Shown: positions 13,074-39,135 of the stretch, piece by piece
How positions within the stretch are numbered: the first letter of the stretch is position 1
How the letters are laid out: each line of letters starts with the position of its first letter
DNA from: Sulfurimonas sp.
GTDB taxonomy: Bacteria; Campylobacterota; Campylobacteria; Campylobacterales; Sulfurimonadaceae
NCBI GenBank assembly: GCA_026988315.1
Contig: JALSLJ010000078.1
Span: forward strand, 1 to 44,248
Direction of reading: 5' to 3'
Length of the DNA stretch: 44,248 nucleotides
Notes under the pieces: generated by a model
Seen by the model: the letters and a program-made list of their open reading frames with translations, nothing else
Told to the model about the DNA's origin: nothing
Databases searched by the model: none
Position numbers and translations under genes: made by a program

Positions 13074-13093
13074 GGGCACCTCTAAATCTATCT
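13052..13093. terminator. Convergent bidirectional hairpin between the HD-GYP gene and batD
   Basis: AGATAGATTTA and TAAATCTATCT form a perfect 11-bp inverted repeat around a 20-base loop. It overlaps the last codons of both convergent genes: the HD-GYP stop lies in the loop and the batD stop lies in one arm. A run of T follows on the plus strand at 13102-13108. It is best read as a shared terminator, although the T-run is displaced from the stem. Confidence 0.5.
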
Positions 13094-14515
13094 TATATCA
13101 TATTTTTTAAGAATCTCTTTTATCTCCTTTTTTTCTACCTCTATCTTCTCTCCACTATAGATATTTTTCTCTAAAATATCTACTATTTTTTGCACTCTAG
13201 TATCATCCTTATATGGAAAAAGTTTCATTATAAGAACTTTTGGATCCTTTATAGAGACTTGCTTCTCTTTGTTTAAAATCTTCCATGGTCTTAGCAACAT
13301 CACAAAGACACCCAAAACAACACCCCCCACAAATGCCAACATAATCCAAAGAGTATCTACACCACTTTTTAATTCATCTGCAGAATTATTTATCTCTGTA
13401 TCTTTATCTACTTCTCTTTTTATTGTAAGCTCTTGACTTTGTTTTGCGCCATTTACTTTTATAGCTATAGGCTTTGTTTGTATAGTTTGAATCTTTGATG
13501 TGTTTGGGTTAAAAAATTTTAAAGTAAATGGTGGAATTGTAAAATCTTTATCAGAAACCAATGCAATTTTTTGAGATAATTTAGCACCACGAATACGAAT
13601 CTTTTCATCAAATGAGTTTACACCATCTATATATGGCTTAAATGTTTTTACATCCTCTAAGTTTCCAACCCCTTTTACTTCAATATTTACATTTACCGCT
13701 TCGTTTACATTGATGGTTTTTTTATCTACTGCTGCACTTATAGTAAAATCGCCAACTAAATCTACTCCTGCTGGTAGTGCTTTTACTTTGATACTCAGTT
13801 CATTTGAGAAATATGTTCTCCACTTAATTTGTGGTATCCATGCTCCCCAACTATCTTTTCCTGCATCTCTAGATGCTATCTTCATCTGTGCTGGAGTGAT
13901 TTTTTGCACACCCTCTCTTTGTGCAGATACAACATAAGAGAGTTTTGTAATTGTGTAATCACCTTGCTCATAACGCTGGGAATCTTTTTCCTCTTTCACC
14001 CAAAGACCTTTCAACTCCGGCGGAACAAATTTAGAGTCAACTGCATTCGCACCTGATCTTTGCTTAAAGAGTAGCACTATCTCAAACTCCTCACCAACAA
14101 AAACTTCCTTTTTAGAACTTTGAAGTATAAGCACAAAATCTGAATCTTTTGCGACATCCATAGCTTTTACTTTGACCTTTATAGGTTTTGTAAGTTCAGT
14201 AACTCCATCTATCTCAATCTCTATGGGCTTAATAGTACAACTTTTTTGAGGTGTAAACTCATAGTTTAGTATATAACTTTTTTTATACTCCCCATTGACT
14301 ATCTGGATACTTGTTGAAGAGCCACTAGATGTAACATCTGAGTCACACAGAGTATAGATTGTTGGTCGTTTTACATTTTCGCCAGATACCTCTAGGTGTA
14401 AGGTTACTGCATCACCCAAAGTTACAGTTTTAGTGCTGACACTTGCAGTAACTCCTCCATACAAGGCATATGGAATTAGCAATAGTAAAGATATTAGTTT
14501 ACCAAGGTTTATCAT
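13088..14515 (-). CDS. batD: BatD family protein (first Bat set)
   Basis: A membrane-anchored periplasmic protein of the Bat system, once linked to aerotolerance in Bacteroides. I chose the ATG at 14515, which has AGAGG upstream and opens a signal peptide (INLGKLISLLLLIPYALYGG). Two Ig-like BatD repeats follow (TASVSTKTVTLGDAVTLHLEV and a second unit with VDKKTINVNEAVNVNIEVKG). A membrane helix lies at about 390-412 (WIMLAFVGGVVLGVFVMLL), and a basic/acidic cytoplasmic tail of about 60 residues ends the 475-residue protein. It overlaps the end of batBC by 17 bases. Confidence 0.85.
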   Translation of the reverse strand: MINLGKLISLLLLIPYALYGGVTASVSTKTVTLGDAVTLHLEVSGENVKRPTIYTLCDSDVTSSGSSTSIQIVNGEYKKSYILNYEFTPQKSCTIKPIEIEIDGVTELTKPIKVKVKAMDVAKDSDFVLILQSSKKEVFVGEEFEIVLLFKQRSGANAVDSKFVPPELKGLWVKEEKDSQRYEQGDYTITKLSYVVSAQREGVQKITPAQMKIASRDAGKDSWGAWIPQIKWRTYFSNELSIKVKALPAGVDLVGDFTISAAVDKKTINVNEAVNVNIEVKGVGNLEDVKTFKPYIDGVNSFDEKIRIRGAKLSQKIALVSDKDFTIPPFTLKFFNPNTSKIQTIQTKPIAIKVNGAKQSQELTIKREVDKDTEINNSADELKSGVDTLWIMLAFVGGVVLGVFVMLLRPWKILNKEKQVSIKDPKVLIMKLFPYKDDTRVQKIVDILEKNIYSGEKIEVEKKEIKEILKKYDIR

Positions 14516-16394
14516 TTGTATCGTCCTCTTTAGGTTTAGAATCATTGAGCATATAGATATATGTAGAGTGTTGCTTATTTAACTCTCCAAGCCATTTTTG
14601 CTCTTCTGCATCGCTCATCTCCATAGGTTGGGTATTTTGCGGTGCAGATGATGAAGATGTTTTGTTATCTTCTTCTTTATCAAGCTCATCTAATTCAGGT
14701 TTTGATTTTTGCTCATCTTTTGTTTCATTATTCTCTTGGCTTTTATCTGAATCCTCTTTTTTATTATCTTCATCAGATTTTTGCCCTTTATCTTCTTTTT
14801 GTGAATTCTCTTTTTTCTCATCAGATTTTTCTTTATCTTGTGAATCCTCACTTGATGATTCATCTTTATTTTCAGATTTATCACCATCTTTTGACTCTTT
14901 ATTATCGTCATTTTCTTTGTTCTTATCTTTGTTCTTATCTTTGTCTTGTTTTTTATCTTTTTCATCATTTTGCTCATCATCTTTTGAGTCTTGCTCTTGC
15001 TCTTTGAGAAGTTTTTTAACAGCTTCTAAATTTTCTCTCGTTTGTTCATCTTCTTTTATCTTAAGTGATTTCTCATAAATCTCTACTGCTTTTTGAAGAT
15101 TTTCTACATCTCCCTGTTTTGCATAAGAGTTTCCCATATTGGAAAAGTTTTTAGCTCTTAAATCCTTGTTTTCAAAAGTAGCTTTTTCATAAGACTCTAT
15201 CGCCTTAGTATAATCCTCTTGTTTGTAAAAAGCATTCCCTGCATTATAGTAACTCTCGCCATTGTTAGTTTTTTCAGCATAGTTTTTATATAGAGTTGCT
15301 GCTTTAGCATAGTCTTGTGCATCATAAGCCTCTTTCGCCTCTTGTAGCTCCATAAAATCAAACACTCCAGCCTTAACATCCGCAGTTGTAAAAAGAAGAA
15401 CAAAAAGTATGAAAATAGATGGTAAGTTTACAACCTCTCTCTTACTCATAGAACTCGTAGCAATTAGTAGAATAAACAATGCTAAACCAAGTGGAAAATA
15501 AAAAAGTGGTATATATCTTGGGATCTCTTCACTCTTTAGCTCTTTTTTATCTGCTATACTTTCTATCTCTTGTAACATTGTTTTTATATCTTCATTGGAT
15601 GTTGAATTCTCTATATAGACACCACCTGTAGCAGTTGCTAACTCAGATATATTCTCATTGAGTTTGGAGATAATTATGTTTCCTTTTTCTTTTATAAAAC
15701 TTCCATTTGCAAGTTTGATTGGTGCACCCTTAAGCGTTCCAAGACCTAAAACAAAGACCACTATATCATGCTCTTTTGCAATTTCAATCTCTTTGGAGAA
15801 ATCACTTTTATCGCCACCATCGCTCAAAATAAGAAGATATTTTTTACCCTCTTTATTGAGTGATTTGTTAACAACATCAAGCATGGACAAGAAGTTAGTA
15901 CCCTTTTCTGTAATGGAATCTGTATCTAACTGCGATAGTAAAAATTCAACTGCACTATGGTCAAAACTAAGAGGTGATACAAGATAAGAGTTTTTTGCAA
16001 AAGCAATTACCCCAACCCTTTCATTTGGAGCCATTCTTAAAAGATCTAAAGCTTTTTGTTTTGCCAATTTTAAGCGGTTTGGATACACATCCTCCCCTAG
16101 CATTGAGTCTGAAATATCTAACGCTATCATAATATCTGCACTTTTAGCTTTTATGGTTATGGTGCCCTCATTTATTACAGGTTGTGCGAGGGCTACAATC
16201 ATCAAAAATCCTACCAAAAACATCAAAGCATTTCTTGCTTTTAAAGTTAAAGTATTTGCGCTCACACGAAGCTTATCTATTACCTCTTGAGAGAAAAAAT
16301 GCTCTTGTGATTCTTTTTGAGTAAGTAAAAGACCAAAAAGTATAAAAAGTGGAGGGAGCATATAGTATAAAAACTCTGGATGTAAAAAACTCAT
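14499..16394 (-). CDS. BatB/BatC fusion: VWA domain, TPRs and a charged low-complexity tail (first set)
   Basis: An inner-membrane protein combining BatB and BatC. Two N-terminal membrane helices (about 8-25 and 55-72) precede a VWA domain whose MIDAS motif is intact (D93-I-S95-D-S97). Two helices follow near 290-350, then TPR units at about 360-455 (AKAATLYKNYAEKTNNGESY, YTKAIESYEKATFEN). Residues about 470-600 are almost entirely Lys, Asp, Glu, Ser, Asn and Gln. The C-terminus is NDKPW, matching the -KPW end of the paralogue at 24350. Its ATG overlaps the batA stop by 4 bases. It probably binds metal-dependent ligands on the periplasmic or cytoplasmic face. Confidence 0.88.
   Translation of the reverse strand: MSFLHPEFLYYMLPPLFILFGLLLTQKESQEHFFSQEVIDKLRVSANTLTLKARNALMFLVGFLMIVALAQPVINEGTITIKAKSADIMIALDISDSMLGEDVYPNRLKLAKQKALDLLRMAPNERVGVIAFAKNSYLVSPLSFDHSAVEFLLSQLDTDSITEKGTNFLSMLDVVNKSLNKEGKKYLLILSDGGDKSDFSKEIEIAKEHDIVVFVLGLGTLKGAPIKLANGSFIKEKGNIIISKLNENISELATATGGVYIENSTSNEDIKTMLQEIESIADKKELKSEEIPRYIPLFYFPLGLALFILLIATSSMSKREVVNLPSIFILFVLLFTTADVKAGVFDFMELQEAKEAYDAQDYAKAATLYKNYAEKTNNGESYYNAGNAFYKQEDYTKAIESYEKATFENKDLRAKNFSNMGNSYAKQGDVENLQKAVEIYEKSLKIKEDEQTRENLEAVKKLLKEQEQDSKDDEQNDEKDKKQDKDKNKDKNKENDDNKESKDGDKSENKDESSSEDSQDKEKSDEKKENSQKEDKGQKSDEDNKKEDSDKSQENNETKDEQKSKPELDELDKEEDNKTSSSSAPQNTQPMEMSDAEEQKWLGELNKQHSTYIYMLNDSKPKEDDTNDKPW
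14650..15010 (-). repeat. Low-complexity coding tract in batBC
   Basis: This stretch encodes the Asp/Lys/Glu/Ser/Asn-rich tail of BatBC, including short near-perfect repeats such as DKNKDKNKE (around 14915-14950, TTGTTCTTATCT repeated). Because it is so biased, several other frames stay open here; these are not genes. Confidence 0.75.
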
Positions 16395-17320
16395 GCATAG
16401 CCCCTTTTATTTCTTAAATATGTATATAACATCAAAGATATTAATGCTATAAAAAGAGGATACACATAGTAGTATTTCAAATATGTAAAACTCTCACTTT
16501 TTATCTCTGATTTTTCAAGTTCATCTATCTTTTTATATACCTCTTGAAGTTCTGTGGCAGTTGATGCTCCAAAAGCAACTCCACCTGTCTCTCTAGCTAT
16601 CTCTACAAGAGCTTTTCTATTGTATTCATGTGGTAATCCAATCCCTATTGGGTAAACTTTTATCCCCTCTTTTTTAGCCAGCTCAATGGCTATATCTACA
16701 GGAATTTTATCTATCTCTGGAGTGGAGTATCCATCCGTCAAAAGTATAATCACCTTAGAGTTTGATTCAGTCATCTTTAAAAGGTTTACCCCCTGAGCCA
16801 AAGATGTGTAAAGTGCTGTATATTTTCCAGCCATTGCAATTTGAAGTTGTGAGACAATACGGCTTAAAATATTTTCATCATAAGTAAGAGGCGATGCGAT
16901 AAAAGAATACTCACCAAAAACTACTAAACCTATGTTATCATTGATACGCTGGAGGATAAAATCACTTACTATCTCTTTGACAACATCAAATCTATTTAAA
17001 GATGGATTGTCAGTGTCAAATCCCTCTGCTCGCATCGATTGAGAAGCATCCAAGATAAGTGCTATTTCATATCCATCTTTTGGTTCAACTTCATATGGCT
17101 CATCTTTTACAGGTGACATTAATGCAAGTATCATCATAACAATCGCTATCCATTTTAGAAAAAAGAGTAAACTTGAACTCGAAACAGCAGTTTTTAAAAA
17201 CTGCTGAGTATGGGGAAAATAGATAGACTGTAATCTCATTTTACAAAGTGTCGCACAGGCTATAAAAAAGAAAATTACAAATGCTAAACGAGGAAATTCA
17301 AAATAAAGACCATCAAACAT
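16391..17320 (-). CDS. batA: BatA family VWA protein (first set)
   Basis: An inner-membrane von Willebrand A protein. I chose the ATG at 17320, within the upstream gene's last codons and preceded by AAAGAG, because the protein then starts MFDGLYFEFP like BatA family N-termini; an earlier TTG would add 8 residues. Membrane helices lie at about 10-26 and 52-70, followed by a VWA domain with the MIDAS D91-A-S93-Q-S95, a Thr-region TALYTSLAQG and the Asp stretch ILLTDGYST. A C-terminal helix follows (YYVYPLFIALISLMLYTYL). The product has 309 residues. It partners BatB-type proteins and MoxR in known operons. Confidence 0.88.
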   Translation of the reverse strand: MFDGLYFEFPRLAFVIFFFIACATLCKMRLQSIYFPHTQQFLKTAVSSSSLLFFLKWIAIVMMILALMSPVKDEPYEVEPKDGYEIALILDASQSMRAEGFDTDNPSLNRFDVVKEIVSDFILQRINDNIGLVVFGEYSFIASPLTYDENILSRIVSQLQIAMAGKYTALYTSLAQGVNLLKMTESNSKVIILLTDGYSTPEIDKIPVDIAIELAKKEGIKVYPIGIGLPHEYNRKALVEIARETGGVAFGASTATELQEVYKKIDELEKSEIKSESFTYLKYYYVYPLFIALISLMLYTYLRNKRGYA

Positions 17321-17723
17321 CGCACATCTCTTTATATAGCTCAAAATAGCCTAAGGTTTCTTTATCAAAATCATCTACCTCTTTTTTATATTTATACCCC
17401 TCTAAGCGTCTTATGAGGTTGTTATACATCTCACTATGTCTTTGGCTATCATCTTTAAAAGTTGCCCCATAAAATGTAATATCATACGCTGCTTTTTTTG
17501 TATCTTTTAGGCTTATGGATGTTAAAAGTTTCCTATGCTCTTTTCTCACGCTATATGCATTTCGTTTTTGTATCCATTTATAAAGTAGATAGGCAATTCC
17601 AGACACTAGTATTACTGCCAAAATTGTTGCTGCTAAAAAATAGTAAAGGGAGTACTCATGTACTTCCACTATAGGTTTAATATCGTGTAGAGGGATCTCA
17701 AAGTTTTTCATTGAATCTTGCAT
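17313..17723 (-). CDS. DUF4381-like single-pass membrane protein
   Basis: A 136-residue protein with one membrane helix at about 26-48 and a basic cytoplasmic domain. The N-terminus FEIPLHDIKPI recalls the LRDIHLP motif of DUF4381 proteins, which are found between DUF58 and batA genes in other Bat operons. The location here is exactly that. No catalytic motif is seen. A second Met at residue 5 could be the start. It overlaps batA by 8 bases and follows the DUF58 gene by 2 bases. Confidence 0.7.
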   Translation of the reverse strand: MQDSMKNFEIPLHDIKPIVEVHEYSLYYFLAATILAVILVSGIAYLLYKWIQKRNAYSVRKEHRKLLTSISLKDTKKAAYDITFYGATFKDDSQRHSEMYNNLIRRLEGYKYKKEVDDFDKETLGYFELYKEMCDV

Positions 17724-17725: not shown

Positions 17726-18556
17726 CTACCTGCCCTCAAATAAACGGCGAAGCTCAACACTAGCCGTACTTGTAGTATATATTTTTGTAAAGCGGATTTG
17801 ATGTTTTCTAAAAGTTTCATAAAGCTGTCGATCGTGAGCTATAACTTTTTTTGCATATGACTCTACACTTGAAGAGTTGAAGTCACCCTCTAAAACTGCT
17901 CCACTCTCAGGATCTACTAAAGAGGAGAATCCCATTTTTGGCGGTTTCTCTTCTAATATATCCCTAACTATAATAGCAACAACCTCATGTTTTTTCGCAA
18001 GTAACTTAAAATCTGGAATTTCAAAAAAATCTCCAACTATAATAACAAGAGATTTTCTTTTGAGCCTTTTATATAAAATGTCTGCCATAGCTTTGAAATC
18101 CACTTTTTCATTGATCGCATAAAAGTTTAAGATTTCATCAACACTTTTTTGCACCTGGTTTATTTTTTTGCTTGGTTTTAAAAAGGATTTCATCTCGTCT
18201 GTAAAGATATAAGAACTTAATAAATCACCATTTTTCAATGTTGAGAAACTCAGTAATGCCACTATCTCAGCGATAGTCTCTTGCTTAAATTTTTTCGAGC
18301 CAAAGTGCACACTTCCATTGAGTACAGATGCCACGACAACATTTAACTCCCTCTCTTCACGAAAGATTTTTATAAATGGCTTTTGCATCTTCGCTGTAAT
18401 ATTCCAGTCAATATGGCGGATATCATCCCCAGGCATATATTCACGAAGTTCTATAAAATCATAGCCTTCACCCTGAAAGATAGAAGGATTGTTTCCAACC
18501 ATTTCGCTAAAGACTTGTCGCCTCGCACGAACCAATATTTTTTGTAATTTACTCAT
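17726..18556 (-). CDS. DUF58 domain protein of the MoxR/Bat operon
   Basis: A cytoplasmic protein of the DUF58 family that accompanies MoxR ATPases. The family signature FIELREYMPGDDIRHIDWNI (34-53) is complete, and the C-terminal half has a degenerate VWA-like fold (SLVIIVGDFFEIPD). No membrane helix is present, unlike many longer DUF58 proteins. It has 276 residues and starts 14 bases after moxR. It is probably an adaptor between the ATPase and the VWA proteins; this is inference from the conserved operon. No DUF58 gene accompanies the second Bat set. Confidence 0.88.
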   Translation of the reverse strand: MSKLQKILVRARRQVFSEMVGNNPSIFQGEGYDFIELREYMPGDDIRHIDWNITAKMQKPFIKIFREERELNVVVASVLNGSVHFGSKKFKQETIAEIVALLSFSTLKNGDLLSSYIFTDEMKSFLKPSKKINQVQKSVDEILNFYAINEKVDFKAMADILYKRLKRKSLVIIVGDFFEIPDFKLLAKKHEVVAIIVRDILEEKPPKMGFSSLVDPESGAVLEGDFNSSSVESYAKKVIAHDRQLYETFRKHQIRFTKIYTTSTASVELRRLFEGR

Positions 18557-18570: not shown

Positions 18571-19518
18571 TTAAGGTATCGCTACAGTCTCTAAAACTCT
18601 CTGAATAATCTCATCACTTGTTATCCCTTCAGCTTCTGCCTCATAGGTCAAAACTATACGGTGGCGCATCAACTCTTTGGCGATATAGGCAACATCTACA
18701 GGAGTTACAAAATCTTTACCTCTTAAATATGCCATAGCTTTAACAGCTTTAAACATATCAATACTCACACGAGGGGATGCTCCAAACTGTATAAAATCTT
18801 TCAACTCTTCTAGTCCATAAGCACTTGGATCTCTTGTTGCACTAACGAGCTCTATAATATATTCTTCAACTTCAGCATCCATATGAACTTCTTTTATCTC
18901 TCTTTTGAGAGTATTTAAGTCTTCATGTGTTACAACCGCCTCAATCTGCTCAAATTTTCCACTTGATATTCGTCTAGCGATCTCTAGCTCTTCACTTTTT
19001 GTATTGTAATCAACTACAAGCTTGAGCATAAATCTATCTAATTGTGCTTCTGGAAGTTGGTACACACCCTCTTGCTCAACTGGATTTTGAGTAGCCATAA
19101 CAAAAAATGGAGGTTCAAGCTTAAATGTTGTATCGCCTAAAGTTACTTGTTTTTCCTGCATAACTTCAAGTAAAGCAGACTGAACTTTTGCAGGAGAACG
19201 GTTAATCTCATCTGCTAAAAGTAAGTTAGTAAAGATAGGACCTTTTTTGATTTTAAAACTATTATTTTGGGGATCGTAAATCTCAGCACCAAGGATATCT
19301 GAGGGAAGTAAGTCGGGAGTAAATTGAGCACGCTTGAAGTCAAGCCCTAGTGACTTTGCAAGTGCATTAACCGTTGTAGTTTTAGCGAGTCCAGGAACAC
19401 CTTCTATAAGTATATGCCCATCACACAAGAGTGCGATCAAAAGACCGTCAATCATTCTTTCTTGCCCTACAACAACTTTTGAAACTTCTTTTTTAATCTC
19501 TTGAATTTTAGAAACCAT
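18571..19518 (-). CDS. MoxR family AAA+ ATPase
   Basis: A cytoplasmic AAA+ chaperone-like ATPase of the MoxR branch. The Walker A motif is GVPGLAKTT (40-48) and Walker B is LLADEINRSPAKVQSALLEVMQE. Sensor elements follow (MATQNPVEQEG and the later ASPRVSIDM with sensor-2 Arg). The length of 315 residues is standard. MoxR proteins act with VWA proteins to mature or activate client complexes. As the first gene of this Bat operon it is the only AAA+ ATPase gene for the two VWA sets in the window. A promoter with a perfect TATAAT lies 32 bases upstream. Confidence 0.94.
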   Translation of the reverse strand: MVSKIQEIKKEVSKVVVGQERMIDGLLIALLCDGHILIEGVPGLAKTTTVNALAKSLGLDFKRAQFTPDLLPSDILGAEIYDPQNNSFKIKKGPIFTNLLLADEINRSPAKVQSALLEVMQEKQVTLGDTTFKLEPPFFVMATQNPVEQEGVYQLPEAQLDRFMLKLVVDYNTKSEELEIARRISSGKFEQIEAVVTHEDLNTLKREIKEVHMDAEVEEYIIELVSATRDPSAYGLEELKDFIQFGASPRVSIDMFKAVKAMAYLRGKDFVTPVDVAYIAKELMRHRIVLTYEAEAEGITSDEIIQRVLETVAIP

Positions 19519-19549
19519 AAATAAAAAACCTTATTTTTAATCTATTTGA

Positions 19550-19592
19550 ATTATAACAAGGCAGAGGTAAATAGTTGATAAATAGTTGATAA
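19550..19592 (-). promoter_or_regulatory. moxR promoter with a tandem 11-bp repeat over the -35 region
   Basis: On the minus strand TATAAT occupies 19555-19550. At 19571-19592 the plus-strand unit ATAGTTGATAA occurs twice in perfect tandem. The repeat covers the -35 region and the bases just upstream. An 11-base period places both units on the same helix face, which suits a dimeric regulator. The promoter call rests on the -10 box and position; the operator role is inference. Confidence 0.5.
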
Positions 19593-19621
19593 TTAAATAT
19601 TATCTTTTTTAAAAGTATTTT

Positions 19622-19720
19622 TTATAAAGTTGTTTTGTTTTTTGGCTTAAGCAATAAGAAAACATAATAACCAATCAAGCAAACACCTATTGTAAATAAT
19701 GACAAAGCAAATAATTCCAT
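19622..19720 (-). CDS. 32-residue single-pass membrane protein
   Basis: A short frame that starts MELFALSLFTIGVCLIGYYV, forms one hydrophobic helix of about 22 residues and ends in the basic tail KPKNKTTL. It is supported by a strong ribosome-binding site, AGAAGG, eight bases before the ATG, and by a perfect TATAAT at 19760-19755 upstream. The topology rule (positive end inside) predicts the N-terminus outside. The size resembles small accessory subunits of respiratory oxidases and other membrane complexes, but I do not recognise the family. It lies in the gap between the LPP20-family gene and moxR, in the same direction as both. Confidence 0.6.
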   Translation of the reverse strand: MELFALSLFTIGVCLIGYYVFLLLKPKNKTTL

Positions 19721-19754
19721 AACATAATCCTTCTTGTAACCATTTCGTTATAAA

Positions 19755-19760
19755 ATTATA
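19755..19760 (-). promoter_or_regulatory. Probable -10 box of the 32-residue membrane protein gene
   Basis: TATAAT on the minus strand lies 34 bases before the ATG, with an AT-rich stretch upstream and no clear -35. The spacing leaves a leader of roughly 28 bases containing AGAAGG. Confidence 0.4.
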
Positions 19761-19850
19761 TACTATTAATTTTACTTATAAATTTTGTTTTATATATAGT
19801 TGTTTTACTTAAGTATAATGTTAATATTATATTGTGATATTCAAGTGATG

Positions 19851-19889
19851 TAGGATAAATAAATTTGAAAAAATCAAACATTTATCCTA
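19851..19889 (-). terminator. Strong hairpin after the LPP20-family gene
   Basis: TAGGATAAAT and ATTTATCCTA form a perfect 10-bp stem, and within it TTTGA/TCAAA around five A form a second 5-bp stem. It begins 15 bases past the stop of the LPP20-family gene. No terminal U-run follows in the direction of transcription, so it may be a weak terminator, a 3'-end stabiliser or a binding site. It separates the second Bat/lipoprotein block from the downstream genes. Confidence 0.5.
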
Positions 19890-19904
19890 AAGTGAAAGGG
19901 AGTT

Positions 19905-20894
19905 TTAGTTACCTGTTATAAAAGCAACCACCCCTTTTTCATTTATTTTTTTCTCATACTTTGCAGTTCTTTGGATGGCATCTTCAAAACCTTCAGAGGA
20001 ACCCTCTTTTGTTTTATATACCTTATTCGACACAATATTTCCATCTCTATCTGTTGCTTTTATAACTGTTTTTCTAAGAGCAAAGGTAAGGTTGGCAAAC
20101 TTTTCATTTGTTGATGGGTACTTTTTCTTTTTTGCTTTTGTTGTAATCTCAATCAACACATTGTAGTTAGTATTATTAAAAGTTGCATTTTCACTACTTA
20201 GTTCTGAGCGTATTAAAGAAGCTAATGATTCTGAGTTTTTATCTGCTTTAATTTTAAAAACAAGCTCATCTTTAGCTTTTCTCATCTCTTTTGTGTAGTT
20301 TAAATAACGCGTAGTATATTTAGAAGCATCATAATCACCTTTGAGTGAATACAATAAGGGAAAAATACTGTCAGTTTCTTTTAGATAATTATTTATAGTA
20401 ACAGATAGCTTTAGCTTTTGAAATATTCCAGCATTTTTAAAAACTTCCCATTCTGCTTTTATTTTATCATCAACCTTATCTAATTTTCTCTCATAGGTTT
20501 TTATTAAAGAATCCCTATCGACCTCAACTAAAACAGCCCATTGATTTGAATCCTTAAAGCTCTCTATAACTTTAACATCCGTATATTCAATATTCCTACT
20601 TTTACTAATAACTTCACTCTTCGTAGTAGCTAAAACACTCTCATCATCACCTTGTCTTCTTGCTGTTACAGAGTTAGAAAAATTCGATGCAACATCTACA
20701 GAAATTTTTGCACTGATGGTTGCCAAAGCATCACTTTTTGCATCTTTTTGAGTTTTCCCATATCCAACTGCATAAAAGTATTTATTGGTATCTGATGGAG
20801 GATTATTTATCCATGACATAGAAGCACTACTTGAAGCAAAAGCTCCAGAAATGCTTGTAATCAATAAGGACAAAACAAGAATTATCTTTTTCAT
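19905..20894 (-). CDS. LPP20-family periplasmic protein
   Basis: An exported protein of 329 residues. The signal peptide MKKIILVLSLLITSISGAFA has a type I Ala-x-Ala cleavage site and no lipobox Cys, unlike H. pylori Lpp20. The mature N-terminal ~120 residues match the LPP20/FlgP-like fold pattern: NPPSDTNKYFYAVGYGKT, DAKSDALATISAKISVDV, then a hydrophobic WAVLVEVDRDSLIKTYERKL. The C-terminal part is a second, unassigned domain rich in Lys with a VLIEITTKAKKKKYPS strand. It follows the COG3014-like gene by 15 bases and has GGAG eight bases before its ATG. Its job is unknown; the context suggests an envelope complex with the two preceding lipoproteins. Confidence 0.7.
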   Translation of the reverse strand: MKKIILVLSLLITSISGAFASSSASMSWINNPPSDTNKYFYAVGYGKTQKDAKSDALATISAKISVDVASNFSNSVTARRQGDDESVLATTKSEVISKSRNIEYTDVKVIESFKDSNQWAVLVEVDRDSLIKTYERKLDKVDDKIKAEWEVFKNAGIFQKLKLSVTINNYLKETDSIFPLLYSLKGDYDASKYTTRYLNYTKEMRKAKDELVFKIKADKNSESLASLIRSELSSENATFNNTNYNVLIEITTKAKKKKYPSTNEKFANLTFALRKTVIKATDRDGNIVSNKVYKTKEGSSEGFEDAIQRTAKYEKKINEKGVVAFITGN

Positions 20895-20909
20895 AACTAC
20901 AACTCCATT

Positions 20910-22247
20910 TTAATTAGTTGCTTGTGCTAATTTTTTTTTACTAGCTTCTTTTTGGGCTGCATCTTGCGCTTTATTTTGTTCCATTTTTGTTGCATAAGCT
21001 TCCAAAATAACATCTGTAAAATCATCATACTTTTGAGCTAATGTAGCTTGCTTGCTTGCATAATATGTACCTACAAAAATATTTGGCAATAAATATATTG
21101 CATTTTTCACAAGCCTCTCTACCCTTTTATCATATTTTGATTGTAGATATGAAGGAACACGCGCTTTGGCAACAGCTAATGAAACAAGCTCTTTTGGAAA
21201 ATTTAAAACAGCATTAGTTGTTCCTAAATTTGTTAAAGCCAATCCAAAAGCTGCATATGCTTCAGTTGCACCATAATCAATCTCATTCGCCACTATGTTG
21301 ATATTTTTTGCCAGTTTCACATACGCTTCATCATCTATATTTATATCACTCTCTAATGCAATGGTTGCTCTATCAAGTAATTCAAAATAGATAGCTTCTT
21401 TCTCATCTGCAACCGATTCAGCTTGCTTAATTCTTTCCTCTAAAACAGCTAACTCATTTTTAATCTCATTGATCTCTTTATTTGTTAAAAACTTTTGTTT
21501 TTGCTTTGTTTTCGCTTTTTTATTTGCTGCATCTGCTTGTAATTCTGCATCATATTCACCTTTATCATCCTTTAGAGATGCTGTTAGTTCAAAAGCTTCT
21601 AACATCTCTTCTCTAGCTGATTCTAAATCTTTTTGTAAAGAGACAGGAGCTAAAGATATTACAGCCTCACCAAGAGTTTCATATACATCTCCTGTTGGCG
21701 AATCAATCTCTTGAAGAGTTGCATTTTTAAAATCTAAAAAACTACCCTCTGCAGAATCAAAACTAAAAATATTTGGCCACTGCTTAGCATCTTCACCATA
21801 AAATATAGATATTTTAGAAACAGCTCTATAGGCAAGAGGAGAAACGCTTTGGTCTAAAATCATTGCTGTAAGGGTTCCAAAATCACCAAATTGACTCATC
21901 AGAGCTCCACTACCCAACATTTTTCTTTGGATTGCCTTAGTGTAATGAACTGTTGAATAGTATGGATCTGCTTTTAATACATTATCTATATATTTGGTTT
22001 GATTTTCATCAATATCTGCAGATACTAAAGTTGGCCAAATGGCATCTGAAGAGATAGGTATCTTATATGCCATTATATTATTTTCTCTTACTATTGTCAT
22101 ACCTATTGCAACACGATTTACTTGATTTTCAAGCGTTGGAACTTCCATTTGCGATGCCATTGTTTCTTGAAGTGCACTACATCCAGTCATTGTAAATGTT
22201 GCAACTGCAATAACAAGCGAATTGATTATTAATTTTTTTGATTTCAT
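20910..22247 (-). CDS. COG3014-like lipoprotein
   Basis: The start was set to the ATG at 22247, which has AAGGG in front of it and opens a lipoprotein signal (KSKKLIINSLVIAVATFTMT followed by GC); a longer frame would begin inside the upstream gene. The mature 425 residues are mostly helical and Ala/Lys-rich, with a coiled-coil stretch NEIKNELAVLEERIKQAES and internal repeat-like helices resembling TPRs. The overall pattern reminds me of proteins labelled COG3014 that neighbour LpoB-like and LPP20-like lipoproteins in Vibrio and Shewanella. It lies 25 bases after the LpoB-like gene. Function is unknown. Confidence 0.6.
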   Translation of the reverse strand: MKSKKLIINSLVIAVATFTMTGCSALQETMASQMEVPTLENQVNRVAIGMTIVRENNIMAYKIPISSDAIWPTLVSADIDENQTKYIDNVLKADPYYSTVHYTKAIQRKMLGSGALMSQFGDFGTLTAMILDQSVSPLAYRAVSKISIFYGEDAKQWPNIFSFDSAEGSFLDFKNATLQEIDSPTGDVYETLGEAVISLAPVSLQKDLESAREEMLEAFELTASLKDDKGEYDAELQADAANKKAKTKQKQKFLTNKEINEIKNELAVLEERIKQAESVADEKEAIYFELLDRATIALESDINIDDEAYVKLAKNINIVANEIDYGATEAYAAFGLALTNLGTTNAVLNFPKELVSLAVAKARVPSYLQSKYDKRVERLVKNAIYLLPNIFVGTYYASKQATLAQKYDDFTDVILEAYATKMEQNKAQDAAQKEASKKKLAQATN

Positions 22248-22272
22248 ATTTACCCTTATGGTTTTATTGATT

Positions 22273-23211
22273 TTATTCGTATTCATCATCAGAGCTTCCT
22301 GCCATAGAATCTCTGTCATCTCTTAGTGCCTGATTTGCCTTATCTTGCTTTTTGGTTTTATTTAAAAGCTCATAAAAGTTATCAAACTTAGCTTTAGCAT
22401 TCATCACCATTTCATCTTCTATACCTCCAAGCTGCACAGCTTTTTCATAATTTATAGATGCTGAATCTAAAAGTTTAAGACTCTCGGTAATACTAGCCTC
22501 TGCTTCATAAAGAATTGCCAAATCATAGTGATAGTTCAAATCTTTTTCACCTTTAAAATTTTCCATCAATTTTATAGCACCTTTATAGTTTTTTCTTTTT
22601 GCATAAGAGATCACATGTTTTAGCTCTTTAGGTAAAGGTTTAAACTCTCTCATCTGATGCGTTTTCAAAGGAGATACATCTGAAATAAAATACTTTACAA
22701 CTTTTGAAACAGCAGAAGAAGCTAGCTCATTTTCACTTGGTAGTTTATTTGGATCACTTGATTGACGGTTTTTTCTTGCTTTATATTTTTTTACTAAAAA
22801 CTCATCAACACCTCGTGAAAGTACAAAGGTAACCTCTAAAGCCATACTTACTTTTTTCCCAGAGTTCTTGTACTCATAATTTGAAACTTTCATACTTAAT
22901 GTAACACCCTCTTCACCACCAAGAGGATCAAGAGTAATAAAATTTGTCTCAGTAAGCTTAGCCTTTACTCCATCTATAAGCATCTGTGCTAACTTAGGGT
23001 TTGTTTCCTTAGCGCCTTTGACTTCTGGTGATAAGAATAGTGCGAGATAAGCACCGTCAGAGATAAATTCATCTCTTGTTTCAATTTTGCTTAGTTTTGC
23101 AGCCTCTTTTGGTGCAGTGTATGATGGTATAACAATTTTAGGACCAGCCCCACAACCACTCACTAATAAAGTGATAACTAAAACCATAATTGTTGCAATT
23201 ATTTGTTTCAT
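22273..23211 (-). CDS. LpoB-like lipoprotein with a helical C-terminus
   Basis: A 312-residue lipoprotein with signal MKQIIATIMVLVITLLVSGC and the lipid-modified Cys at 20. The N-terminal half (about 40-190) has an LpoB/CsgG-like alternating pattern: LAQMLIDGVKAKLTETNFITL, then VSMALEVTFVLSRG, then AVSKVVKYFISDVSP. The C-terminal half resembles TPR helices (LNYHYDLAILYEAEASITES, INYEKAVQLGG). LpoB proteins reach through the peptidoglycan to activate penicillin-binding proteins, but the resemblance is only fold-level and the role is inferred. It follows batD2 by 54 bases, a gap holding a hairpin and AAAGG before the ATG. Confidence 0.55.
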   Translation of the reverse strand: MKQIIATIMVLVITLLVSGCGAGPKIVIPSYTAPKEAAKLSKIETRDEFISDGAYLALFLSPEVKGAKETNPKLAQMLIDGVKAKLTETNFITLDPLGGEEGVTLSMKVSNYEYKNSGKKVSMALEVTFVLSRGVDEFLVKKYKARKNRQSSDPNKLPSENELASSAVSKVVKYFISDVSPLKTHQMREFKPLPKELKHVISYAKRKNYKGAIKLMENFKGEKDLNYHYDLAILYEAEASITESLKLLDSASINYEKAVQLGGIEDEMVMNAKAKFDNFYELLNKTKKQDKANQALRDDRDSMAGSSDDEYE

Positions 23212-23242
23212 TTTTTTCCTTTAAATAATTTGAACAATCATA

Positions 23243-23264
23243 GTAGATTAAAATTTAATTCTAC
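23243..23264 (-). terminator. Hairpin between batD2 and the LpoB-like gene
   Basis: GTAGA/TCTAC plus TTAAA/TTTAA make a stem of about 10 bp with one bulged base, starting one base after the batD2 stop codon. There is no U-run, so transcription probably continues, perhaps with attenuation or mRNA processing between the Bat and lipoprotein parts. Confidence 0.35.
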
Positions 23265-23265
23265 A

Positions 23266-24369
23266 TTAACCCACAAGCTCTTTTTTTAAACTTTTCAGTG
23301 ATTGAGACTCTTTTCTCTCAATCTCTAAAATCAACTCATTATATTTTCTAGCATTTTCTAAAGTTAAGACAATCGCCAACTCTTTTAATGATTTAGAATT
23401 AGCAACTTTTTGTAAAAATTTTTTATCTACATTCTCTTTTTTAGGTTTTGTTTTTATCTTTATTTTTGCTACTAAAAAACCAGCTATAAAAGTTAATAGA
23501 TAATAGAAATATGTGTACGAAAATTGAAATGTTTCCCCTGTAACATCCAGTAATTCCTCTTTTACATAAGCTTTTTCTACTTCAACTTTTATGGCTTGTG
23601 TCTGCAAAATTTTTACCTGTGTTAACTCTATGTTGAAATACTCAAGTGCAATCTCTGGTATAACGAAATCTTCATCTGACACAAAAACAAATTTTTGACT
23701 CCACTTGCCACTATACCCCTCTTTTGTAAGAATTATCTCTTTTTTTGGTACGCTAGAAAAAACTTTTACATTTTCTATGTCAAATTTAAACCCCTTCAAA
23801 GCATCGATATTTCCAATTCCATTTATACTTACTTCCATGTGAAATGGCTCGTATGCTTTTACTTGTGGAGCATCTGCATTTACATTTAAGAAAAAATTTC
23901 CAACAAGCAATGTGAGGGTCTCTTTAATATCCACAACTAAACTCTTTTGCTTCATCACTCTTTGGGAAAACTCCTCTATTTCCCTATCATTATCCCTGCC
24001 ACCTATCGTGCTATCTATTGACTCCTGTGTTGTTTTTTTCATAATCATATTAAAATCAAAAATCATTGTGCCAGCTTCTTTCACAAAGGCAATAAATTCA
24101 TAAACATTGACTCTTTTGTTGTTAATTATCTTTTCACTTTCTGCTAAAAGTTTTAAGCTGTATTTTTCATTATCACCTACTGGGTTGAAGTCTATAGTAT
24201 AAAGTTCACTTTTATCGCTAAATTCGCAAGTGTACTTGAGATGTATCGCTTCATTTACATAAGCTGTTTTTTTATTTATCTCTGCAGTCCATCTATATGT
24301 TGAAGCAAAAAGTTCCAAACTTACAAAGAGTAAAAAAACTACAAAAGCTTTACCAAGGTTTTTTTTCAT
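23266..24369 (-). CDS. BatD-like protein (second Bat set)
   Basis: A 367-residue paralogue of the BatD protein at 13088. It has a signal peptide (NLGKAFVVFLLFVSLELFA), then a first Ig-like unit (KKTAYVNEAIHLKYTCEFSD), a second unit (YEPFHMEVSINGIGNIDALKG) with SDEDFVIPEIALEYFN. The first copy has the matching SDKDFTIPPFTLKFFN, which establishes homology. A membrane helix (YFYYLLTFIAGFLVAKI) precedes a Lys-rich cytoplasmic tail. It is about 110 residues shorter than the first copy. It overlaps the end of batBC2 by 20 bases. Confidence 0.78.
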   Translation of the reverse strand: MKKNLGKAFVVFLLFVSLELFASTYRWTAEINKKTAYVNEAIHLKYTCEFSDKSELYTIDFNPVGDNEKYSLKLLAESEKIINNKRVNVYEFIAFVKEAGTMIFDFNMIMKKTTQESIDSTIGGRDNDREIEEFSQRVMKQKSLVVDIKETLTLLVGNFFLNVNADAPQVKAYEPFHMEVSINGIGNIDALKGFKFDIENVKVFSSVPKKEIILTKEGYSGKWSQKFVFVSDEDFVIPEIALEYFNIELTQVKILQTQAIKVEVEKAYVKEELLDVTGETFQFSYTYFYYLLTFIAGFLVAKIKIKTKPKKENVDKKFLQKVANSKSLKELAIVLTLENARKYNELILEIERKESQSLKSLKKELVG

Positions 24370-25795
24370 TTACTCCCCTCTTATTTATAAGTTCATACTG
24401 TTGAGAACTCAGTTTTGATTTAGCCTTATTTAGATGGAGTACACCATCGCTTCTCATCTTTTTTTCCATCTCGCCTGCTCCACTTCCTGCATTGGCGCTT
24501 ACTTTCATATTTGAACTGCCCCCATCTTTTTTCTTTGTATTTGAGCTTTCTTGCTGTGCAAAAGATGATTTTTTATCTGTTTTTTGCTGACCCATCTTCA
24601 TCTGCTTTTGTTCCTCTATATTTTTAATATAACGCAAATTTTCATCTGCTTCTTTAGAGTACATAAGAGTAAGTGATTTCAAGTAAGCTTCTCTCGCTTT
24701 TTGAAACTCTTGCAACCTTATAAATGAATTGCCAATATTATAATAGATTACAGATTTAAACTTTGCATTTGATGATGCAACACCCTCATAAGTTTGTAGT
24801 GCTTTTTCGTACTCTCCATTTTTATAATAAGCACTCGCTTTTTTAAACTTTACCCTATTTTCATCTTCAAAAAATTCGTATATACTGGCATCCAAATTCA
24901 CCCCAAAAAGAAGTAAAAATGCGAAAATGTACCTTTTAAGAGTCGTTATTGTCACTAAAAACACCAGTATGGCCAGTGCAATAAAGTAGTAAAAAAGTTC
25001 TAAGTTCCTTACTATAATCATTTGCGATAAAATATCCCTATTTTTTTGACTCTCTAGCGCATCTCTTAGTTCATTAAAGTCTTTAGTATAGATGCCCCCC
25101 GTACTTTTTGAGATGAAAGCAATGGCATCATTTTCTCTACTGACAACTATATCTCCCTTTTCATCTTTTAAGAGTTCTCCATTATCAAGAGTTAGAGTGC
25201 CCCCATGCTTGCTTGCTAACATCAAAATATTTACAAGAAGATTATTCTCTTTTGCAAACCTTGCCTCTTTTTCATAATTTCTAGCATCCCCTCCATCACT
25301 CAGTATCACCACGGTAACACTTTTTGATTGTGACATTTTTCGTGCAAGTTTTAGAGCTGGTAAAATCGAACTCCCCTTGGTTATTATCAACCTTTCATCC
25401 AAAGCATTAAAGAGGTGAAGCAGAAGTTCAGAATCTTGAGTAAGTGGTGAGAGAATTATCGCATTAGTTGTAAAGCCTAAGACACCATATCTGGTTTGTG
25501 GTTCTTGTTTTACAAGTTTTTTTAAAATCTCTTTTGCTTTTGTAAGTCTTGTTGGTTCAATATCTGTAGCTTGCATAGAGTAAGACAAATCAACTCCGAT
25601 GATTACATCACTCAAAACCTGCTCACTCTTTAAAGGTTCTTGTTCCATAATAGGGCGAGTAAGAGCAAGTGTTATAAAAACAAATGTCAACATATATCCA
25701 AAAACTATAAAATTCAGTTCACGGAAACTTTTTTTTATAAATACTGGAACTAAAAATAATAGTAGCCAAAAATATTCAGGGGAAAGAAAAATCAT
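24350..25795 (-). CDS. BatB/BatC-like VWA-TPR protein (second set)
   Basis: A 481-residue paralogue of the protein at 14499. The N-terminus MIFLSPEYFWLLLFLVP parallels MSFLHPEFLYYMLPPLF in the first copy. The VWA MIDAS is intact (D69-L-S71-Y-S73), and VVILSDGGDARNYEKEA carries the second metal-site Asp. Two membrane helices near 270-310 are followed by TPRs (ASAYYKNGEYEKALQTYEGV, NSFIRLQEFQKAREAYLKSL). The long charged tail of the first copy is replaced by a short Gln/Ser/Gly-rich linker (SSNMKVSANAGSGAGEMEKK). It ends EKKPW. It overlaps batA2 by 4 bases. Confidence 0.85.
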   Translation of the reverse strand: MIFLSPEYFWLLLFLVPVFIKKSFRELNFIVFGYMLTFVFITLALTRPIMEQEPLKSEQVLSDVIIGVDLSYSMQATDIEPTRLTKAKEILKKLVKQEPQTRYGVLGFTTNAIILSPLTQDSELLLHLFNALDERLIITKGSSILPALKLARKMSQSKSVTVVILSDGGDARNYEKEARFAKENNLLVNILMLASKHGGTLTLDNGELLKDEKGDIVVSRENDAIAFISKSTGGIYTKDFNELRDALESQKNRDILSQMIIVRNLELFYYFIALAILVFLVTITTLKRYIFAFLLLFGVNLDASIYEFFEDENRVKFKKASAYYKNGEYEKALQTYEGVASSNAKFKSVIYYNIGNSFIRLQEFQKAREAYLKSLTLMYSKEADENLRYIKNIEEQKQMKMGQQKTDKKSSFAQQESSNTKKKDGGSSNMKVSANAGSGAGEMEKKMRSDGVLHLNKAKSKLSSQQYELINKRGVNEKKPW

Positions 25796-26715
25796 TTTTT
25801 TATCTCCCTATAGATTAAAAATAGCACTAACTGGGATGCTAGAAGTAAAATTATCTGATAATAGTACTCTTTTAAAATATATTCACGACTCTTAATCTTT
25901 GAAGACTCTAATTTATCTATCTTTGTATATACTTTTTGCAACTCTTTTGCACTTGTAGCGCTATAAAACTCACCCTTTGTCTCTGCTGCTATTTTTTCAA
26001 GTAAAGAAGAATCCGCCTCCCCCTCATTTCCAATAGCAATTGTATATATTGTAATATTATTCTCTTTTGCTAAGGCAGTAGCCTCTTGTGGTGAGACAAC
26101 ACCACTGTTATGCTCTCCATCACTAAGAAGTATCACTATTTTACTCTTTGCATGCGAGTACTTAAAAGCCCTCACACTTACGGCTATAGCCTCCCCTATT
26201 GCAGTATTTTGCCCTGCCATCCCTTGGTTTAAGTATGAAAGCATATCAATGACTATCTTTTTTTCATAAGTGATTGGGGAGGCTATAAAAGCAAAGTCTC
26301 CATAAAGAACCACCCCTATGTTATCACTTACTCTGTTTTGTATAAACTCACTTGCAATAATCTTTGTAAGTTCAAATCGACTGACTCTTTTCCCCTCACT
26401 TATCTCATCTTCGAGATCAAATCCAGATGAATTCATAGAGCCACTTGCATCAATTGCCAAAACTATATCTTTGCCTTCTCTATTGAGTGGGTTTAATTTA
26501 TCTATGATTATTGGGGAAGTAAGTCCAATACAGAGCAATGTAAATATAAGAATCTTGATTATCCACTCTAGCTTTAAATAACCTCTTTTGACAGGCAAAA
26601 AATGTAAGTGCACAAAAAATCTTGGCTTAATATATTCTTTACACCTATAAAGACATAAAATTATTGGGATAAGCAACAATATCAAAAATGGGTATTCAAA
26701 ACTATAGTAATTCAT
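25792..26715 (-). CDS. BatA-like VWA protein (second set)
   Basis: A 307-residue inner-membrane VWA protein, first of the second Bat set. I chose the ATG at 26715 because the protein then begins MNYYSFEYPFLILLLIP like BatA relatives; a TTG six codons earlier is the alternative and neither has a strong ribosome-binding site. Helices lie at 10-24 and 52-70, the MIDAS at D89-A-S91-G-S93, TAIGEAIAVSVRAF at the Thr region and ILLSDGEHNSG at the Asp region. A C-terminal helix ends the protein. No MoxR, DUF58 or DUF4381-like gene precedes it; tRNA-Lys lies upstream on the other strand. Confidence 0.86.
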   Translation of the reverse strand: MNYYSFEYPFLILLLIPIILCLYRCKEYIKPRFFVHLHFLPVKRGYLKLEWIIKILIFTLLCIGLTSPIIIDKLNPLNREGKDIVLAIDASGSMNSSGFDLEDEISEGKRVSRFELTKIIASEFIQNRVSDNIGVVLYGDFAFIASPITYEKKIVIDMLSYLNQGMAGQNTAIGEAIAVSVRAFKYSHAKSKIVILLSDGEHNSGVVSPQEATALAKENNITIYTIAIGNEGEADSSLLEKIAAETKGEFYSATSAKELQKVYTKIDKLESSKIKSREYILKEYYYQIILLLASQLVLFLIYREIKK

Positions 26716-26810: not shown

Positions 26811-26839
26811 TTGACATATAAAAACTATTTGTCTATAAT
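26811..26839 (+). promoter_or_regulatory. Consensus sigma-70 promoter of tRNA-Lys
   Basis: TTGACA (26811-26816) and TATAAT (26834-26839) are both perfect and separated by exactly 17 bases. The -10 box and the following discriminator TCCCGTCC are part of a 22-base identity with the promoter at the left edge of the window. Full consensus promoters are unusual in this phylum and fit a highly expressed stable RNA. Confidence 0.9.
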
Positions 26840-38188: not shown

Positions 38189-38233
38189 AAATTGCTTATT
38201 ATTTCAATAATGAATCATCTTAAGGGACAAGAA

Positions 38234-38743
38234 ATGAAATACTCTCTACTTTTTGTTGCACTTTTAAGTGCATCCACTCTCGTAGCAGTTGAAACAGATG
38301 AAACCATAAATAACTCTGAGTCTATTGAAGTAGTTGAATTTAAAGAGGTGCAACCTGTCGATAATGTAGATGAGTGCACTAGGGGGGATTGTGGCGAAGT
38401 AAACACAATCAACGACGAGCTATTAGCACTAGCTACAAATATTCGTGTGAGTGTAGTTGGGCAAGGTGTTGCTCCTATGCATACTAGTTCCCCCGCACAG
38501 GCTTACGCTCTTGCTAAAAGAGCAGCTATCGCTGATGGCTACAGAATGATTGCTGAACGCGTAAAAGGAGTACGAGTTGAAGGTCAAGACTTAATCAAAA
38601 ACATGATGGTTGCAAGATCATCAGTTCGTACTTCTGTCAATGCAATGATTAGAGATGCAAGCGTTTTAGAAACTACATTTAAAGATGGATTATGCGAAGT
38701 AGAGATGGAAATCGTACTTTCTCACTCTCTCTTTGCTCGTTAA
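38234..38743 (+). CDS. flgP: Flagellar protein FlgP (LPP20-like domain)
   Basis: Required for motility in Campylobacter, where FlgP forms the basal disk that widens the motor. The ATG at 38234 was chosen because AAGGGA precedes it and the protein then starts with a signal peptide (MKYSLLFVALLSASTLVAV); a longer frame adds 14 unlikely residues. The domain shows SPAQAYALAKRAAIADGYRM and AERVKGVRVEGQ, typical of LPP20/FlgP. No lipobox Cys follows the signal, although C. jejuni FlgP is a lipoprotein. Two Cys occur later in DECTRGDCGE. The product has 169 residues. Confidence 0.88.
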   Translation: MKYSLLFVALLSASTLVAVETDETINNSESIEVVEFKEVQPVDNVDECTRGDCGEVNTINDELLALATNIRVSVVGQGVAPMHTSSPAQAYALAKRAAIADGYRMIAERVKGVRVEGQDLIKNMMVARSSVRTSVNAMIRDASVLETTFKDGLCEVEMEIVLSHSLFAR

Positions 38744-39102
38744 TACTATTTAGTTCGCTAACACTAAAAGCAGACGAGTATCTTATCTCTTACCGCTATG
38801 TGGTAAAAGATGCTATCCTCTTTAATGAAGACTTATATATCTCTAGGGCAATGCAAAAATGCAAAGGAACTCCTAGTGATACTCTCATCATAAATAGTGA
38901 CGGCTTTAAAAATCTAAAAAAAATAATACAAAAAAACAATACTTTATTTATTGATTATATCCATAAACTTGGCTTAGATGTAAAACATGAAGAACGCAAT
39001 ACAAACTTGCAAAATAGTTCCACAACTATTTTAACACTAAAGACCACCTGCTTCAAAGTCGATTTTAATGATAATCTCGCTAAAATATCCCCTTTAAAAT
39101 AA
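38692..39102 (+). CDS. flgQ: Flagellar protein FlgQ
   Basis: A 136-residue exported protein assigned mainly by position directly after flgP, as in C. jejuni, where FlgQ is needed for FlgP stability and motility. The first 52 bases overlap the end of flgP in another frame. The N-terminus RSRDGNRTFSLSLCSLILF ends a signal peptide at SSLTLKA before DEYLISYRYVVKDA. Cys residues in MQKCKG and TTCFKV may pair. The ribosome-binding site (AAAGATGG) is weak, consistent with coupled translation. Confidence 0.75.
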   Translation: MRSRDGNRTFSLSLCSLILFSSLTLKADEYLISYRYVVKDAILFNEDLYISRAMQKCKGTPSDTLIINSDGFKNLKKIIQKNNTLFIDYIHKLGLDVKHEERNTNLQNSSTTILTLKTTCFKVDFNDNLAKISPLK

Positions 39103-39135
39103 GAATAATTTATACGAAAACTTAAAGGTATTTTG

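Follow-up and report, generated by a model that had tools for sequence, protein, structure and literature searches.

Bat proteins are widespread. In the Bat operons described from Bacteroides, Leptospira and Borrelia, MoxR and a DUF58 protein are encoded together with BatA, BatB, a tetratricopeptide repeat (TPR) protein and BatD, and the von Willebrand factor A (VWA) domains of the set carry the metal ion-dependent adhesion site (MIDAS); BatA and BatD are duplicated in B. fragilis too, and the accessible parts of the Leptospira and Borrelia papers leave Bat function open (PMC5700661, PMC3557215). Here we analysed a 44,248-nucleotide stretch of DNA from Sulfurimonas sp. (contig JALSLJ010000078.1; hereafter the window) that holds the same components: VWA domains with the DxSxS motif of the MIDAS in BatA and BatB, a BatC-type TPR, BatD, and MoxR with DUF58 in the same locus. 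The difference is that its two bat sets flank a cassette of outer-membrane lipoprotein genes. We propose, with confidence that is about evenly balanced, that this is a duplicated MoxR/Bat system with an outer-membrane lipoprotein module of its own, the two working jointly on envelope assembly or maintenance.

Lipoproteins encoded in a row are known from C. jejuni, where cj0089-cj0091 specify three predicted lipoproteins in one operon, Cj0089 having been assigned to the inner membrane and Cj0091 to the outer one (Oakland et al. 2011, PMC3100323). The Cj0091 orthologue HP1457 has been called an LpoB homologue, and HP0018, whose gene shows synteny with hp1457, has been tied to envelope maintenance (PMC11394524). 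The trio in the window is a different set, since its gene 1 has no profile match to true LpoB. The accessible open-access literature contained no description of a Bat-lipoprotein locus, an absence that is weak evidence, and no such link appears in the available text of PMC9275681 (which lists a putative moxR gene in the binding table of an envelope regulator) or of PMC12282271. The locus consists of twelve genes, all on the minus strand and therefore running from high to low position, in coordinates of the whole window:

batA2, 25792-26715, minus strand: VWA protein (Pfam E 2.1e-20); ATG start, the longest open reading frame (ORF) beginning with TTG at 26733
batBC2, 24350-25795, minus strand: BatB-type VWA fused to BatC-type TPR (Pfam VWA_2 E 1.9e-16, plus TPR)
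batD2, 23266-24369, minus strand: BatD with N-terminal signal (PF13584 E 5.2e-6, over cut-off)
bat2-cassette junction, 23212-23265, minus strand: 54-base gap
cassette gene 1, 22273-23211, minus strand: lipoprotein with a predicted LptE/PelC/TraT/CsgG-like domain plus TPR
cassette gene 2, 20910-22247, minus strand: mostly helical lipoprotein without Pfam family
cassette gene 3, 19905-20894, minus strand: LPP20 protein with signal sequence, no lipobox cysteine
cassette-moxR gap, 19519-19904, minus strand: 386 bases
moxR, 18571-19518, minus strand: AAA+ ATPase (Pfam AAA_3 E 3.4e-64)
DUF58 gene, 17726-18556, minus strand: DUF58 protein (PF01882 E 1.9e-43)
136-residue bat1-set gene, 17313-17723, minus strand: one predicted transmembrane (TM) segment; a weak Pfam match, below cut-off only
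batA1, 16391-17344, minus strand: VWA protein with DxSxS
batBC1, 14499-16394, minus strand: VWA plus TPR
batD1, 13088-14545, minus strand: BatD (PF13584 E 3.2e-29)

A sequence-only reading of the window had described the first six genes as one operon, a second Bat set continuing into three envelope proteins. All six ORFs were found on the minus strand with the spacing it gave (overlaps of 4 bases between batA2 and batBC2 and of 20 bases between batBC2 and batD2, then the 54-base junction), an N-terminal hydrophobic stretch is present in each envelope protein, and an inner-membrane VWA/TPR set beside outer-membrane-type lipoproteins is what these genes encode. Yet bat2 plus trio, the proposed unit, makes up just the leading half of a longer run of genes, because the trio sits between bat2 and moxR-bat1, and the real unit is bigger than described. 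Each locus has one moxR and one DUF58 gene, both belonging to the bat1 side, and the 136-residue gene lies between DUF58 and batA1 in most typed bat1 loci. Against the NCBIfam models, BatA2 matched BatA_Lepto with an E of 4.3e-46, below cut-off, and BatBC2 matched the Leptospira BatB and BatC models, also below cut-off.

The layout recurs in one genus. Three samples bear on this: a relatives set of 60 genomes, own included, with regions fetched mostly by bat matches; a class-wide draw of 298 genomes (G005, G012, G016 and G020 belong to both); and 19 loci from a scan of genome contigs with the gene 2 profile (L161-L179), which make 20 with the window and include four records already in hand as genomes (L169, L170, L172 and L175 are G337, G026, G030 and G063). 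Among the relatives, a cassette lies upstream of moxR in 16 of the 20 evaluable same-genus genomes, G002, G009, G010 and G030 being without it; G006, G015, G023 and G035 were not evaluable, same-genus bat1 regions such as G001, G007, G008, G013, G022, G027 and G034 stand outside this count, and the region of G026 is centred on its trio, not on its bat genes. The bat1 set of L173 is nearly identical to that of G030, yet L173 has the trio upstream. The class draw covered every same-genus genome (most regions fetched by LPP20 matches, the rest by bat or gene 2 matches), and there a lipoprotein cassette stands beside bat genes or moxR in 18/18 same-genus genomes, own included. It is directly upstream of moxR in 17 of the 18 (the exception is G309; in G067 moxR is there but bat1 does not adjoin), and bat2 is upstream of it in 13 of 17 evaluable genomes, in G246 with a TraT gene between. 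The bat2-cassette junction thus recurs in other genomes and is not confined to this strain, as the sequence-only reading had asked of it.

The trio itself has a narrower range. At E 0.001 the gene 2 profile matched 5/298 genomes of the class draw, all in the family of the window, and the LPP20 profile matched 102/298 at E 1e-8; in the relatives set gene 2 was matched in 7/60 genomes (two of the matches short and weak) and gene 1 in 5/60, all of the same genus, with BatA-type proteins matched in 50/60. The trio loci come from Sulfurimonas, Helicobacteraceae or other bacterial metagenome-assembled genomes. Of 13 loci that could be evaluated downstream of the trio, 10 have moxR-bat1 there, separated from it by further genes in L171 and L177 and by 626 bases in L173; of 15 that could be evaluated upstream, 8 have bat2, in L166 beyond another cassette. 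The full twelve-gene order is present in L162, L167, L169 and the window, and trio-moxR-bat1 in one further genus of the family (G063).

The slot between bat2 and moxR does not always hold the same genes, but most cassettes encode an LPP20-type protein together with a lipoprotein of the CsgG/LpoB/LptE kind. Its contents vary among the trio of the window, a pair (first a lipoprotein of about 335 residues that matches CsgG/LpoB and TPR, then an LPP20 lipoprotein), and a set with true LpoB, DUF1425 and an LPP20-like gene. For the first protein of the pair, CsgG was matched in 17/17 members and LpoB in 15/17 at E 0.01 (13 members from the slot, four from another family), and DUF6340 in 2/17 (best E 1.1e-7). 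The LpoB set fills the slot in G005 and G012 in the order LPP20-like protein, 478-residue (475-residue) lipoprotein, DUF1425 and true LpoB; its family test was run on the G005 proteins, which matched PF13036 (E 8.2e-41), TIGR02722 (over cut-off) and DUF1425 (E 1.4e-19), the LPP20-like protein staying below the Pfam cut-off (19.9 vs 25.9 bits). Combinations exist as well: the slot of G032 has the LpoB set and the pair together, L166 and L177 carry the trio and another cassette side by side, and L165 has two copies of gene 2. We would guess that the LpoB-DUF1425-478-residue set of G005, G012 and G032 is the counterpart of the cj0089-cj0091 operon; the 478-residue type is presumably COG3014 or Cj0089-like.

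To place these contents on a phylogeny we used a tree of joined MoxR-DUF58-BatA1 sequences, computed with a quick method from 40 loci (of 41 labelled, L138 was left out for missing genes), with nine branches left open and long rows for L065 (the outgroup) and L175. With cassette type scored in six states, two of them 'none' and 'both', the 40 loci require 14 or more changes, against a shuffled mean of 16.6; as few were reached in 7 of 200 shuffles. The starred branches alone force at least 7 changes for the pair and at least 4 for the trio. For instance, the sisters L163 and L139 carry trio and pair, respectively (Shimodaira-Hasegawa-like approximate likelihood ratio test, SH-aLRT, 98), and the sisters L073 and L074 carry LpoB set and pair (SH-aLRT 96). 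The position of the slot is thus kept while its content is swapped for similar kinds of protein. We rank this as the best single argument for a functional link between Bat and cassette; the alternative is a neutral insertion spot.

Other genes also appear in or near the slot. A TraT-family lipoprotein gene lies between batD2 and the pair in three loci (L052:1002-1763, L083:9113-9874 and L131:7062-7820; PF05818 was tested in L052, and the other two were assigned by similarity or profile), and proteins of about 245 residues with a Leu/Phe-tRNA-transferase domain (PF03588) are encoded between cassette and moxR at L177:5531-6265 and L171:12271-13008. In L078, L087 and L178 we found a bat-less second form of the trio, followed by a protein of about 600 residues of the Lnb_N/DUF7843/DUF7840 kind (tested in L087, the others by similarity).

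Cassette gene 1 had been read as LpoB-like, and this did not hold by sequence. The protein has a hydrophobic N-terminal stretch and a lipobox (LVSGC), but no Pfam match at E 0.1, CsgG (PF03783) included, and no credible NCBIfam match. As a candidate LpoB it was rejected: PF13036 and TIGR02722 were unmatched, PF13036 was absent from the matches of 18 gene 1 family members at E 0.01, and the gene 1 profile did not match true LpoB. A search of the own genome for LpoB was empty, with the E. coli control matching. The UB2H docking domain was found in none of 25 same-genus genomes (own plus 24 others, some incomplete) at E 0.001; in all, 6 of 41 genomes gave a UB2H match, none over cut-off; of the 14 controls, 6 matched, E. 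coli being one of them. Among the gene 1 relatives, Pfam LptE was matched below cut-off in 1/18, and DUF6340 in 3/18 members of the set (best E 4.5e-5; below cut-off in L178), with no DUF6340 match for the protein of the window.

The AlphaFold2 model of gene 1 (predicted local distance difference test score, pLDDT, 87.8) shows an alpha/beta domain at about residues 25-182 and TPR-like helices at about 193-290. Foldseek gave 16 matches at E 0.001 for the domain, mostly LptE and similar lipoproteins and one FlgT (best E 2.2e-5). Structure comparison (VIA) placed the N-terminal domain at Z 9-10 from LptE/PelC/TraT/CsgG-type lipoproteins, with low identity (6-18%): PelC 5t10 at Z 10.0 (root-mean-square deviation, rmsd, 3.2; 122 residues aligned), TraT 9fs5 at Z 10.0 (rmsd 3.3, 124 aligned) and CsgG 4q79 at Z 9.3 (rmsd 3.3, 120 aligned). 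The TPR part resembled LpoP 6w5q (Z 9.3, rmsd 2.5, 86 aligned), and the PDB sequence matches of the gene 1 alignment cover this part only. The 50 VIA matches listed include no known LpoB structure, which excludes nothing. The predicted fold is hence an LptE/PelC/CsgG-like domain plus TPR. Unlike those lipoproteins, gene 1 has the extra TPR domain and no known barrel partner; like LpoB and LpoP it is an outer-membrane-type lipoprotein, with TPR as in LpoP, but without the LpoB family match and without a UB2H partner in the genus sample. We also tried gene 1 and the CsgG/LpoB-type slot protein as full-length homologues (hhalign 97.7%), and this failed when the sequences were split, since the TPR halves matched at 95.2% and the N-terminal halves at 15.8%; what stands, on profile comparison, is a TPR match and a similar architecture.

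For gene 2 a COG3014-like identity had been suggested, which could not be supported. The protein, mostly helical in its AlphaFold2 model (pLDDT 84.0), has a hydrophobic N-terminal stretch and an MTGC lipobox; we chose the start at 22247 for its clean lipoprotein signal, the longest ORF starting at 22319 and overlapping gene 1 by 47 bases. No Pfam match at E 0.1, no credible NCBIfam match and no credible family were obtained, and a PDB sequence search returned 0 matches. Against the 478-residue slot lipoprotein type (a profile of 5 sequences) hhalign gave 4.6%, in the signal peptide only. The best structure comparison (Z 10.5, rmsd 3.2) spans 104 residues of long helices and may reflect just a common arrangement. 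Gene 3 had been called LPP20-like, and here the domain was right (PF02169 E 5.9e-8, 33.5 bits vs a cut-off of 25.9; the family profile also matches the solved structure 4kzs, E 4.6e-11), while the lipoprotein part was not borne out: there is no cysteine in the signal region of this copy, so the lipoprotein signal is missing although the hydrophobic stretch is there. The LPP20 proteins of L165, L167 and L170 also lack this cysteine; the relatives were read with a strict lipobox pattern, its misses being re-read by eye. The own genome has more LPP20 genes elsewhere, with two or more adjoining each other at G000:C76 57315-59282 (L066), beside a 391-residue ORF with a hydrophobic N-terminal part.

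From the linkage of bat genes and cassette, which is observed, we infer how the proteins could work. BatA and BatB would sit in the inner membrane with their VWA domains in the periplasm and the BatC-type TPR and BatD domains beside them. The hydropathy profile of BatA2 predicts three TM segments (4-22, 52-70 and 287-305), a pattern like that of BB0173, the BatA homologue of Borrelia, for which measurements placed the VWA domain in the periplasm (PMC5700661), and DxSxS is present in all Bat family members used (24/24, 16/16, 22/22 and 15/15). On the cytoplasmic side, MoxR and DUF58 may use ATP to drive remodelling, on the model of NorQ-NorD, in which a MoxR-type ATPase remodels its VWA partner; there the target is nitric oxide reductase, and the accessible text mentions no lipoprotein module (PMC13036017). 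The cassette proteins might form a complex under the outer membrane that is either a partner of the VWA/TPR proteins or their client. The system would then most likely build or maintain a structure of the outer membrane or one associated with peptidoglycan; the interchangeable modules would set the target, and the two Bat copies may act as two partners of one machine. A fuller version, a modular trans-envelope machine in which two Bat complexes, with VWA/TPR domains in the periplasm and one MoxR as power source, work on exchangeable outer-membrane lipoprotein modules, the modules deciding what is assembled or repaired, is a tentative extension that we hold with clearly less confidence. Such a machine would provide Bat with an identified partner at the outer membrane and would explain why it has stress phenotypes. 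A recurrent partner set makes the question of the Bat client directly testable, and the swapping of cassettes at one slot is natural evidence for cooperation between Bat and a module at the outer membrane; it also offers a way into LPP20, CsgG/LpoB-type and DUF6340-like lipoproteins that are still uncharacterised.

Several points weigh against such joint action. Gene neighbourhood is not physical interaction, vertical descent inside one genus may by itself account for some of the conservation, and NorQ-NorD is a different MoxR-VWA pair. Topology was taken from hydropathy, with a positive-inside signal clear for BatA2 but not for BatA1. On the tree, cassette content is somewhat (weakly) clustered, and the 14 changes count the states 'none' and 'both'. 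The bat1 set goes without an adjoining cassette in the four relatives named above; conversely, lipoprotein pairs or trios without bat genes in the fetched region are found in L078, L087, L095, L096, L140-L148, L176 and L178, with bat genes missing on both sides in L176 and L178 as well as in L078, L087, L095 and L096. A single twelve-gene transcript is doubtful in the window, because the 386-base gap between cassette and moxR has a strong hairpin (19851-19889; a perfect 10-base inverted repeat, -14 kcal/mol, z -4.6) and a 10/12 promoter-like site. In the Leptospira Bat gene cluster, quantitative reverse-transcription PCR pointed to independent promoters, which counsels caution in assuming one transcript (PMC3557215). 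The 386-base gap of the window is the longest among 17 same-genus survey loci, the others measuring 49-138 bases, and contains a hydrophobic 32-residue ORF (19622-19720) matched at full length, among the fetched loci, solely in copies of the window's own sequence.

The sequence-only reading would have given way to a strong terminator and a separate promoter at the bat2-cassette junction (23212-23265): the terminator scan found no terminator-like site there, and one weak promoter-like match (9/12, 23225-23198, minus strand) does overlap it, of a kind frequent in the region (45 found vs 35.6 expected). RNA folding of 23190-23290 was no better than that of shuffles (z -0.69). In 12 other same-genus survey genomes -4 to 88 bases follow batD2, with batD2 and the next lipoprotein gene overlapping by 4 bases in G016, G172 and G232. 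Genes were typed on first-start ORFs, with profiles built from the same loci, so the distances in surveyed loci are approximate.

The same data can be read in other ways. The cassette could be a separate envelope module, such as an LpoB/LpoP-type regulator of a peptidoglycan synthase, that shares only its regulation with Bat, in one envelope-stress locus, and forms no complex with it. We regard this as possible, if tentative: comparable pairs occur on their own in another family (L141-L148, where the fetched region has no bat gene), the accessible accounts of Cj0089-Cj0091 and of HP0018/HP1457 give no Bat link (PMC3100323, PMC11394524), true LpoB and DUF1425 sit in the slot of G005, G012 and G032 (by family test in G005), and the TPR part of gene 1 resembles that of LpoP, a TPR lipoprotein able to activate PBP1B (PMC7267771). 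Those stand-alone pairs are also why delivery of the lipoproteins by Bat, which the sequence-only reading had put forward, is not favoured as obligatory. Repeated exchange at the same slot, however, fits functional dependence better than independence, and a PBP1B route of the known form was not found, the search for UB2H (25 same-genus genomes, E 0.001) and that for LpoB (own genome) being empty; the one class A synthase detected in the own genome could still be a target.

That the linkage is neutral, gene order being generally conserved in Sulfurimonas and the slot a tolerated insertion spot that gathers lipoprotein genes, seems improbable to us. The wider order is partly conserved too, with an ORF of about 276 residues next after bat1 in many loci, and the slot does admit other genes (TraT, the Leu/Phe-transferase-domain proteins and, in G002, a 755-residue ORF); but the cassette genes share the strand of the bat genes, with little space or an overlap between neighbours, and envelope proteins of the same kinds occupy the slot time after time. 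We hold it very improbable that the cassette builds a FlgP/CsgG/PelC-like disk or pore in the outer membrane for export or motility, with Bat as its assembly chaperone. The predicted N-terminal domain of gene 1 does match the ring-forming lipoproteins PelC, TraT and CsgG (VIA), and the LPP20 family includes the flagellar FlgP; those matches, however, tie with LptE and other lipoproteins, pointing to a shared fold only, and any oligomer is hypothetical. The reading we prefer remains a Bat system acting jointly with its lipoprotein module.

The second LPP20 gene of the window (38192-38743) is part of a row of five genes at 35705-41472: gyrA, the LPP20 gene itself, a 136-residue ORF, a sigma-54 response regulator gene and a semialdehyde dehydrogenase gene. 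This order resembles gyrA-flgP-flgQ-flgR-asd of Campylobacter, so this LPP20 gene is probably the flagellar flgP. Finally, a perfect TTGACA-17-TATAAT site lies on the plus strand at 26811-26839, just before a tRNA-Lys gene and divergent from batA2.

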